Source: Clostridium sp. (GTDB lineage Bacteria; Bacillota_I; Bacilli_A; RF39; UBA660). From it: a DNA stretch of 40,472 bases. Under the pieces are notes generated by a model, which saw only the letters and a list, made by a program, of their open reading frames with translations, ran no database searches and had not been told where the DNA came from. Location: assembly GCA_023665725.1 (NCBI GenBank), contig JAMPDH010000013.1, forward strand, positions 1 to 40,472, read 5' to 3'. This document shows, one piece after another, positions 1-11,068 of the stretch; the stretch's first letter is position 1, and each line of letters begins with the position of its first letter. A program made the translations under genes and the position numbers.

Positions 1-82
1 ATAATTATATTTTATATAAACAGAGATTATTATTTTAAACATTTTATTATACATTTGTCTACTTTTAGTTTACCAGTACATA

Positions 83-113
83 TTGACAAAATTAAAGGGG
101 GGGGGGGTATAAT
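83..113 (+). promoter_or_regulatory. Sigma-A promoter with poly-G spacer (candidate phase-variable promoter)
   Basis: A perfect -35 (TTGACA, 83-88) and a perfect -10 (TATAAT, 108-113) are separated by 19 nt, of which the last 11 are G. The optimum spacer is 17 nt, so the present length should be suboptimal, and loss of one or two G would bring it to 18 or 17. Transcription would start near 120, just upstream of the ribosome binding site AAGGAGTGA (128-136) and the ATG at 142. A 7-bp inverted repeat (AGTACAT at 75-81, ATGTACT at 112-118) brackets the promoter and might be an operator. The promoter motifs are seen directly; the switching role is inferred. Confidence 0.8.
97..107 (+). repeat. 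Homopolymeric G11 tract
   Basis: Eleven consecutive G in a genome where other G runs in this window reach only about five. It lies entirely inside the spacer between the -35 and -10 boxes. Homopolymers of this length are prone to slipped-strand mispairing. Confidence 0.95.
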
Positions 114-141
114 GTACTTATAAGAAAAAGGAGTGACTTAA

Positions 142-1029
142 ATGAATGAAGTAATTCAAGAAAATGGTAAAAATAATGGAAATAAAATAAAGACAGTAAT
201 AATAGTACTACTTGTAATAGTAGTATTAGGATTATTAGCTTATATAATATTTGGAAAAGATAAAAATAAAGAAAATGAAAATGATATAACAAATGATAAT
301 ACAAATGATGTAGTAATACTTGATATTAATAGTAGTGAAATTCAAGAGTTAACAGAATTTGTAAGAGACTATGATGATTTAAATGAAGATACACATTTTC
401 CATCTACTGAAAGATTGATAGCTGCGCTTGACTTAAATAATACTAATCGTAATGATAAAATGATGGAACTTATTTCAGATGTATTTAATCCAATATCGAC
501 ATGCTTTGATCCTGATAATGGTTGTGCGAGTAAATGTCTTTTTATAGATGATAGTTATTATTGTAGCTATGTAGAACAAAAAAGTATGGAAAATAAATTT
601 AGAGAGGTATTTGGACCAGATGTTGCTTACACTAATAGAACATTCATATCTAATAGGAAGTGCGCTTTAGCAAATCAATATGATCCAAAAACACAAAAAT
701 ATTGGGCTTATGATCAATGTGGTGGTGGAGAACCTCCTATACAGTATAGAGAATTATATAAAGCAGAACAAAAAGATGATGAAATATATACTTACTGGTA
801 TTTTTATGAAGCTTTTACAGAATTTGGCTACGACGAAACACATTCTTATTTATCAATAATAGATGCAAATGGTGTAGAACACAAAATAGTTATTGATTAT
901 AATATTGATGATAGTGAAAAGGAAGAGTTTAATAAGCTTAAGACAATAATGGATTTAAAAACATATAAAATAACATATAAAAAACAAAGTGATGGAAAAT
1001 ATTATGTATATAGTGGAGAATGGATATAA
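142..1029 (+). CDS. Membrane-anchored extracytoplasmic Cys-containing protein, unknown function
   Basis: A 295-residue protein. It has a short Lys/Asn-rich cytoplasmic N-terminus, one membrane helix at about residues 19-39 (TVIIVLLVIVVLGLLAYIIF), then a Lys/Asn/Glu/Asp-rich linker (to about residue 60) and a folded domain of about 230 residues. The positive residues before the helix and the acidic linker after it suggest an N-in, C-out anchor. The outer domain carries clustered cysteines (STCFDPDNGCASKC and YYC, later RKC and DQCGGG) that could form disulfides. The start is fixed by AAGGAGTGA just upstream. It stands alone and is preceded by the poly-G promoter, which suggests ON/OFF expression. 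I do not recognise the family. Surface location is inferred from topology. Confidence 0.8.
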   Translation: MNEVIQENGKNNGNKIKTVIIVLLVIVVLGLLAYIIFGKDKNKENENDITNDNTNDVVILDINSSEIQELTEFVRDYDDLNEDTHFPSTERLIAALDLNNTNRNDKMMELISDVFNPISTCFDPDNGCASKCLFIDDSYYCSYVEQKSMENKFREVFGPDVAYTNRTFISNRKCALANQYDPKTQKYWAYDQCGGGEPPIQYRELYKAEQKDDEIYTYWYFYEAFTEFGYDETHSYLSIIDANGVEHKIVIDYNIDDSEKEEFNKLKTIMDLKTYKITYKKQSDGKYYVYSGEWI

Positions 1030-1158
1030 CCATTCTTTTTTGATTAATACATTGCTTTTTATATATTTTTTCCTTATAATTAAGACATAGGTTTGTGTAT
1101 AAAATATTTGAAAAAAGTGATATAGTTAATAGTTATATAAAAGCAAAGAGGTGTATTG

Positions 1159-3609
1159 ATGTTAAAAAAAGAATATAAAAATATATTAATATTATTTTTA
1201 ATACTTTTAATTTTAATAATAATTCCAACTGGATTTAATTTATTCGGTTCAAATACGGATTGGATTAATCAACATATTGTTTTTCCTGAATATTTAAGAC
1301 AACTTTTTTATGATACTAAAAATATACTACCAAATTTTACTTTTAATTTAGGAGCAGGAGAAAATATATTTAATATAGCATATTATGGTTTATTAAATCC
1401 TATAATACTTTTATCATATTTGTTTCCATTTATAGAAATGAAAGACTACATAATAGGTATAAGTATAATTAGTTTATTTGTAACAACTGTACTTTTTTAT
1501 AAATGGGTTAGAAATTCTTTTTCAGAAAAGATATCATTATTAATATCTATAATATTTATAACTAGTGGTCCACTTATATTTCAGGCACATAGACATATCA
1601 TGTTTGTAAATTATATGCCATTTTTAATACTTGGACTTATGGGTATTGATAAGTTATTAAAAGATAATAAAAAAACACTTCTTATTGTAAGCATATTTTT
1701 ATGTTTAATGACAAGTTATTATTATAGTATAGAAGTAATAATAGTGTTATATCTTTATTTTATTTTTAAAAAATTAGAAAATAATATAAAAATAAAAAAA
1801 ATTATAAAAGATACTTTATTTTTAACTTTATATATATTAATTGCTATACTTATGAGTATGATATTAATTTTACCAGTTTTATATACCTTAACTTTAACAA
1901 GGGGAGAAAATATATTTAATTTAAGTTTATTAATTCCAAACATTGATCCAACATATATTTTATATGGAGCTTATTCATTAGGTTTAACTAGTATAGCACT
2001 CATTTCTATTTTGTGGCTTACATTTAAAAACAAAATAAGTTATAGATTTTTAGGAATAATACTTATAATATTATTTTTTGTACCAGCAGTTTCTTTAATA
2101 TTAAATGGGGGACTTTATATAAGAGCAAAAGTATTTATTCCTTTTATTCCACTTATATGTATGATAATAGGTTTATTTATTAAAGATTTATTTGATAATA
2201 AAGTTAAAATTAAAGATTTTATAATTTACATAATTATTGTAAATATAATTTGTTTGATTTGTAAAACATATTCGATTCTTTATTATTTAGATTTAATAAG
2301 TTTAATAATAATTCTTATTTTATATAATAAATTTAATAATAGAAAAATTATCTATATACCTATAACTATTATAAGTATATTAAGTTCATTTTACATGAAT
2401 TTTACAGAAGAATATGTTAACTATAAAAAATATAATTCAATATTTAGTGCTGATATAAATTATTTAATTAGTGATATAGATAAAACATATAGAGTAAGTA
2501 ATTTACTTAATTCTAGTTATACAGTAAATAAAATATATAATACTTCTTATTATACAACTAATATTTATTCTTCAATATATAATAATTATTATTATAACTT
2601 TGTAAGAAATGAGTTTAGGGTTAATAATCCTTATTATAATAGCTTTTTAATAGGTTCTGTTAACAATATATTATTTAATACTATTATGGGCAATAAGTAT
2701 ATTATAAGTAATGATAATCCAGGTAATGGATATGAGTTATTAAATGAAATAGGTAATATAAAAATTTATAAAAATGATAATGCATTTTCTATAGGTTATG
2801 TTAATACAAATTTAATGAGTGAAGAGTATTATAATACATTAAATTATCCATATAATGTAGAAGCTATTTTAAATAATGTTATAGTAAATAAAGATATATC
2901 TATAATAAATACAACTAATATAGAAAAAACTAAACTTAAATATAAAGCAATATATGATAATATTAATGTAAGTAAATTAGAAAGTGGTTATAACATAATT
3001 ACTACTAGTAATAAAAAAATAAAATTAGAATTAGATACACCATTAAATAATAAAATATTATTTATAGATTTTACTGGATTAAAACCAAATTCATGTGATA
3101 TAGATGATATTTCTATAACAATAAATGGAATAAAAAATATTTTAACTTGTGATACTTGGACATATCCTAATAACAATACTACATTTTATTATGTAATAAA
3201 TGAAGAGTATTTAGATACATTAGATATAGAATTTAGTGAAGGTAATTTTAATATAGAGAATATAAATATTTATACACTTGACTATGATAATCTAATTAAA
3301 AACTATGATTGGTTTAAAGTATCTAGTATAAAGGATAATAAAATAGAAGGAAATATAGATGTTAAAAATAAGGGTTACTTTGTATTAACTATTCCTTATG
3401 ATAAAGGTTTTGAGATATTTGTAGATGGGGAAAAGATAGATTATGAACTAGTTAATAAAGCATTTATTGGTTTTTCAATAGATAGTGGATATCATGATAT
3501 AAAAATAGTTTATAACTCTCCGTATTTAAAAGAAGGTATAGTTTTATCTTGTATAGGGTTTGCTTTATTTATAGGGGTATTTATAATGGATAAGAAAAAA
3601 AGTAGATAA
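1159..3609 (+). CDS. yfhO: YfhO-family polytopic membrane protein
   Basis: An 816-residue integral membrane protein of the YfhO family, GT-C-fold-like proteins linked in Bacillota to glycosylation of cell-surface polymers such as lipoteichoic acid. The N-terminal half shows about eleven hydrophobic helices (residues 8 to about 410). The family's early acidic motif (NTDWINQH, residues about 33-40) is followed by LGAGENIFNIAYYGLLNP, a typical YfhO stretch. Residues about 430-785 form a soluble, presumably extracytoplasmic domain, and a last helix ends in KKKSR. ATG 1159 is chosen over the TTG at 1156 because AGAGG (1147-1151) lies 7 nt before it. Family assignment is good; the exact substrate is unknown. 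Confidence 0.8.
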   Translation: MLKKEYKNILILFLILLILIIIPTGFNLFGSNTDWINQHIVFPEYLRQLFYDTKNILPNFTFNLGAGENIFNIAYYGLLNPIILLSYLFPFIEMKDYIIGISIISLFVTTVLFYKWVRNSFSEKISLLISIIFITSGPLIFQAHRHIMFVNYMPFLILGLMGIDKLLKDNKKTLLIVSIFLCLMTSYYYSIEVIIVLYLYFIFKKLENNIKIKKIIKDTLFLTLYILIAILMSMILILPVLYTLTLTRGENIFNLSLLIPNIDPTYILYGAYSLGLTSIALISILWLTFKNKISYRFLGIILIILFFVPAVSLILNGGLYIRAKVFIPFIPLICMIIGLFIKDLFDNKVKIKDFIIYIIIVNIICLICKTYSILYYLDLISLIIILILYNKFNNRKIIYIPITIISILSSFYMNFTEEYVNYKKYNSIFSADINYLISDIDKTYRVSNLLNSSYTVNKIYNTSYYTTNIYSSIYNNYYYNFVRNEFRVNNPYYNSFLIGSVNNILFNTIMGNKYIISNDNPGNGYELLNEIGNIKIYKNDNAFSIGYVNTNLMSEEYYNTLNYPYNVEAILNNVIVNKDISIINTTNIEKTKLKYKAIYDNINVSKLESGYNIITTSNKKIKLELDTPLNNKILFIDFTGLKPNSCDIDDISITINGIKNILTCDTWTYPNNNTTFYYVINEEYLDTLDIEFSEGNFNIENINIYTLDYDNLIKNYDWFKVSSIKDNKIEGNIDVKNKGYFVLTIPYDKGFEIFVDGEKIDYELVNKAFIGFSIDSGYHDIKIVYNSPYLKEGIVLSCIGFALFIGVFIMDKKKSR

Positions 3610-11008: not shown

Positions 11009-11068
11009 AAAAGATTCAAAATGAACTAGTCAAGTAAAAGTAGACAGTTTAAAATTAGGATCTTTTTT
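11007..11068 (+). terminator. Long intrinsic terminator after the ATP-grasp gene
   Basis: The outer stem AAAAAGATTC pairs with GGATCTTTTT, and an inner stem AACT(A)GTC pairs with GAC-AGTT around an 11-nt loop. The 3' arm runs into six T. It separates the cassette from the TetR operon. Confidence 0.7.

Follow-up and report, generated by a model that had tools for sequence, protein, structure and literature searches.

Slippage-switched promoters are textbook knowledge for a few Gram-negative pathogens, and in the wall-less Mycoplasma a poly-A tract occupies the promoter spacer of the vlp surface lipoprotein family. Closer precedents than vlp for the locus described here are two genes of Neisseria: (i) porA, with a poly-G tract in the spacer between the −35 and −10 boxes, whose length affects how far apart these boxes lie (van der Ende 1995, cited in PMC5320596), and (ii) fetA (frpB), where a homopolymer between −10 and −35 changes expression (Carson 2000, cited in PMC5320596). 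In Helicobacter canadensis, several poly-G tracts are located in promoter regions of genes for surface or secreted proteins and display a range of lengths in the reads (PMC2823697). The gut commensal Bifidobacterium breve carries G10/G11 tracts related to surface pili, for which population heterogeneity was measured and slippage between G11 and G12 was observed in culture; the tracts described there reside within coding regions and switch by frameshift, those in promoter spacers being only mentioned (PMC9187656).

The present locus lies close to the left end of the window (the whole stretch of 40,472 nucleotides analysed) and comprises the following features:

58–80, + strand: 23-nt element TCTACTTTTAGTTTACCAGTACA, common to promoters of paralogues (sequence matches)
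83–88, + strand: −35 box TTGACA (sequence, pattern search)
89–96, + strand: eight A/T bases, AAATTAAA, between −35 box and tract (sequence)
89–107, + strand: 19-nt spacer between −35 and −10 boxes, tract included (sequence)
97–107, + strand: G11 tract next to the −10 box, putative site of slippage switching (sequence; same promoter position in nine tracts of the genome)
108–113, + strand: −10 box TATAAT (sequence)
128–133, + strand: ribosome-binding site AAGGAG, 8 nt 5' of the ATG (sequence)
142–1029, + strand: gene for a surface-type protein of 295 aa (open reading frame; paralogue matches in the genome)
175–252, + strand: predicted N-terminal transmembrane anchor, residues ~12–37 (hydrophobic segment and AlphaFold2 helix)
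1015–1038, + strand: hairpin resembling an intrinsic terminator at the gene end, followed by T-rich DNA (sequence)

As in the Neisseria promoters, a homopolymer of at least nine residues is situated within a recognisable −35/−10 spacer (G11, 19 nt); further features of the porA/fetA type found here are excess of the tracts over chance together with specificity for promoters, a predicted surface-type product and variability in length between promoters with identical flanks. The poly-G spacer ahead of a surface-protein gene resembles porA, but porA is one locus per genome encoding an outer-membrane porin of a Gram-negative bacterium, whereas about ten loci, and up to 37 in relatives, are present in these AT-rich Bacilli. 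Poly-G tracts in promoter regions of genes for surface or secreted proteins are shared with H. canadensis, which, in contrast, is Gram-negative and has five promoter candidates. Likeness to vlp consists in a spacer homopolymer ahead of a surface protein family, the vlp tract being poly-A.

The original prediction had described two perfect boxes with a G11 run setting the spacer to 19 nt, and both boxes, tract and coordinates proved to be correct, as did the calculation that loss of one or two G would yield spacers of 18 or 17 nt. The tract had also been judged improbable by chance and unmatched by any other G run above about five. Indeed, an order-1 model at 24 % G+C predicts only 0.0002 G/C runs of ≥11 per 40 kb, the second-longest G run of the window measures 5, and the four overlapping G8 matches in the window all derive from the G11 tract (0.04 in shuffles). 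The upstream element TCTACTTTTAGTTTACCAGTACA occurs five times in the genome as an exact copy, always 5' of either a poly-G promoter or a contig-end −35 box belonging to the same gene family, and its distance to the −35 box varies by promoter from ~2 to 23 nt. A sixth copy with 3 mismatches is present at 11022–11044 (− strand) of the window. No inverted repeat was found around the window promoter, leaving an invertible promoter unsupported, and an Rfam search of window positions 1–1200 returned no match, hence no known riboswitch or leader RNA in this region.

The terminator-like hairpin and the T-rich DNA at its end make the controlled gene appear monocistronic. AlphaFold2 modelling of its 295-aa product yields a confident domain of extracytoplasmic type behind a single N-terminal helix (pLDDT 82), suggesting membrane insertion with this domain outside. 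Exposure at the surface is likewise suggested by the predicted anchor and by the class of genes enriched behind such promoters (see below), in agreement with the earlier expectation of a product anchored outside the cell. The protein matches no Pfam family and, among NCBIfam models, only a FliL-like one below threshold and confined to the anchor; a Foldseek search of the model against the PDB gave no hit at E ≤ 0.001, the best being a weak NTF2-like/PARC6 resemblance. Twelve matches in the genome define a paralogue family whose N-terminal anchor and C-terminal motif (YKxTxKKQSDGxYYxYSGEW) are constant and whose middle varies; at least one of its members (C6:31129) has no G tract.

The 1.09-Mb genome contains 10 G/C runs of ≥9 (0.17 expected). 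Nine of the ten G≥9 tracts reside in a promoter spacer, as called from TTGACA, TAGACA or TTGACT upstream and/or TATAAT or TACAAT downstream, and including one tract (start of contig 22) that is cut within the G run so that only its −35 side is visible. The tenth begins at the extreme end of contig 24 and leads directly into TACAAT; it looks like the right half of a poly-G promoter, of which contig 22 may hold the left half. Tract lengths measured in the genome range from 10 to 13, and the measurable poly-G spacers amount to 17, 18, 18, 19, 19, 19, 19 and 20 nt. Perfect TTGACA/TATAAT pairs of the same genome without poly-G have their mode at 17 nt (13 of 32), the two length distributions differing with p = 6e-4 (Mann–Whitney), though some of the pairs without poly-G are due to chance (36 pairs in total versus 22 with the mirrored control). 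Most poly-G promoters of this genome thus look over-long in their assembled state, consistent with weak or OFF states if the 17-nt optimum also applies to G-rich spacers. Three contig ends are positioned inside a G tract or no more than ~8 nt from one, where ~0.03 would be expected within 25 nt, and a fourth just short of a tract; the contigs concerned (C2, C6, C22 and C24) end inside or beside poly-G tracts, i.e., the assembly breaks at the putative switches. These breaks may reflect length heterogeneity, but count little in this respect, since Illumina reads also break off at G tracts (PMC9187656). Genes for MutS and MutL were found, ruling out absent mismatch repair as cause of slippage.

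Eight tracts are followed by a readable gene, and in all eight cases a surface protein is predicted. Seven of these genes belong to the paralogue family of the window gene, counting one (C9) of which only the first dozen codons are available and match the family; the eighth encodes a protein of 410 aa unrelated to this family, which carries a signal peptide and whose NPETG tail looks sortase-like on visual inspection. Considering complete open reading frames of ≥100 aa only (hence six rather than eight in the own genome), an N-terminal anchor or signal peptide is present behind the poly-G promoters in 6 of 6 cases in this genome (neighbouring genes: 8 of 40, 20 %), in 18 of 20 in genomes of the same taxonomic family (12 of 40, 30 %) and in 47 of 63 among the GTDB matches listed (86 of 491, 18 %; p = 1e-19). 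Enrichment p-values are optimistic on account of non-independent paralogues, though the GTDB set covers many lineages. Pilins with N_methyl as well as camelysin-like, LRR and fn3 proteins are among the products. The enrichment of surface proteins downstream, which the original prediction had named as a check, is thereby borne out, as is the presence, in related genomes, of promoters whose spacers contain G runs.

Specifically, the pattern TTGACN(1-10)G8N(0-8)TATAAT occurs in 70 of 386 species genomes of the family and its mirrored control in none; 70 is a minimum, some genomes using wider gaps or other boxes. The largest number in a single genome is 37 (G105). By its identical coordinates, this genome seems to match CANQIE01, isolate Lapin-030__bin56 of an uncultured Bacilli bacterium. 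A wider sample of 295 genomes contains the arrangement in nine (mirrored control 0), and GTDB species genomes in at least 119 stretches, including Bacilli, Clostridia, Saccharibacteria, spirochaetes, Streptobacillus and Helicobacter, a few of the matches in GC-rich genomes possibly being due to chance. Cultured carriers among the matches listed are Treponema ruminis, Streptobacillus notomytis, Helicobacter and Pumilibacter. Judging from the sources of related records, the bacterium of the window probably inhabits the gut. Depending on the lineage, the tract abuts the −10 or the −35 box, and since it may touch either, no fixed operator is conserved. Spacers of 17 nt are scarce among the poly-G promoters of the family (8 of 150), most measuring 16 or 18–20 nt; on visual inspection, spacers tend to measure 16 nt where the tract lies towards the −35 box and 18–20 nt where it abuts the −10 box.

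Tract length differs between promoters of the same genome even if their spacer flanks are identical to the letter: 10 of 19 such groups vary, by 1–3 G, this being a comparison between paralogous loci and not between alleles of one locus. Examples are the groups of G261 (11, 11, 12, 12 and 12) and G178 (13, 16 and 16), and two loci of G261, identical at 99 of 101 positions downstream, carry G11 and G12, respectively. Other sets of paralogous promoters are uniform, with seven at G8 in G060 and nearly all at G9 in G105 and G383.

The candidate phase-variable promoter for a surface protein, as originally proposed, is supported by its recurrence, by the class of genes controlled and by the length differences between promoters with identical flanks, all of which, like its anatomy, are directly observed. 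Judged from sequence, the window promoter very probably represents a transcriptional phase-variation (contingency) locus. Replication slippage would add or remove G's in the G11 tract within the spacer of a sigma-A type promoter, and the G count would determine how far apart the two boxes, perfect in themselves, lie and how they are rotated relative to each other. The promoter is probably weak in the 19-nt state; loss of one or two G (18 or 17 nt) would increase transcription of the gene for the membrane-anchored surface protein, gains would decrease it. With about ten such promoters, mostly preceding members of one family with variable middle, combinatorial surface diversity could arise across the population. 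Slippage within a clonal population, dependence of transcription on tract length and a selective reason (immune, phage or adhesion) are what we infer from this arrangement, and the ON and OFF tract lengths are guesses for a G-rich spacer with a possibly A-like helix.

Alternatively, the G tract could be a fixed element that gives the promoter a constant strength or shape, or to which a regulator binds, without any switching. The near-uniform lengths over many promoters in G060, G105 and G383 fit better with such a role, at least in these sets, and the strict orientation of G on the non-template strand (see below) resembles polar recognition by a protein. However, 10 of the 19 identical-flank groups vary in length, the tract moves between −35 and −10 side across lineages, and coding-region tracts with open and frameshifted copies exist in the same family, rendering a fixed element very improbable for the window promoter. 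Only a small probability is likewise assigned to tract length acting as a rheostat over lineage evolution, where rare fixed changes tune each paralogue and no rapid reversible switch operates. Intact MutS and MutL would agree with slow change, as would the fact that differences of one or two G are known here from comparison of paralogues; against it stand the heterogeneity of a B. breve G11 tract within one culture (PMC9187656) and the cut-off for phase variability in Neisseria, which is set at poly-G/C tracts of ≥9 (PMC5953494).

An artefact of sequencing or assembly (poly-G from two-colour chemistry, homopolymer errors) might be suspected from the contig ends in or near G tracts and from the stopping of Illumina reads at such tracts (PMC9187656). 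Yet unique sequence is present on both sides of the tracts, and in many projects, at hundreds of loci, they occupy specific promoter positions with the same class of genes always downstream. An artefact would show no choice of promoters or strand and is practically negligible as explanation, even if the exact length is possibly off by one. A slippage-prone transcriptional switch is by far the preferred reading of the window promoter.

Irrespective of the box touched, poly-G spacers always have their G's on the non-template strand. With the search pattern changed from G8 to C8, a match was detected in none of 376 family genomes and none of 295 genomes of the wider sample (G8: 70 and 9, respectively), in contrast to the poly-C tract (coding strand) of fetA. 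Slippage alone predicts no strand rule, because a duplex tract slips whichever strand carries G, and an extended −10 contact is insufficient, as the rule also holds with the tract at the −35 box. The rule is not general either, since fetA uses poly-C according to the account given in PMC5320596. One may speculate, albeit with considerable doubt, that the lineage operates a transcriptional contingency system ranking among the largest known, and that RNA polymerase or a dedicated factor reads the tract with polarity, giving it a role beyond that of a passive spacer. What appears to be new, given a mechanism already known from porA and fetA, is the lineage, the scale and the fact that poly-C versions are completely absent; no prior description of a poly-G promoter system in RF39 or in metagenome/uncultured contexts was found in the open-access literature. 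Poly-G switching would be a genome-wide habit of an uncultivated family of small-genome Bacilli and of many other, mostly gut-associated lineages, and surface variation of little-studied commensals could be read from ordinary metagenomic reads and tested in cultured strains. A strand preference of this strictness, in turn, raises a clean question about the way in which a G-rich spacer acts within a promoter.

In related genera, the G tract is found in the 5' coding region, just past the start codon, of the same kinds of genes. Pilin-type genes of G032 share the leader MVANSNF-G(n), with G9 giving an open frame of 398 aa and G10 and G11 a stop at 16 aa; in G016, two genes with coding tracts are open and several closed. 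These arrangements, resembling the frameshift tracts of B. breve, suggest translational phase variation, and the property common to promoter-spacer and coding tracts is their easy change in length (indel mutability). Open and frameshifted copies per genome were noted for pilin-type and other anchored proteins at L047, L276 and L277 (G032) and at L249–L255 (G016). In G036 (L266–L274), G tracts are located within short leader open reading frames ~50–60 nt 5' of surface-protein genes, possibly representing a phase-variable upstream open reading frame.
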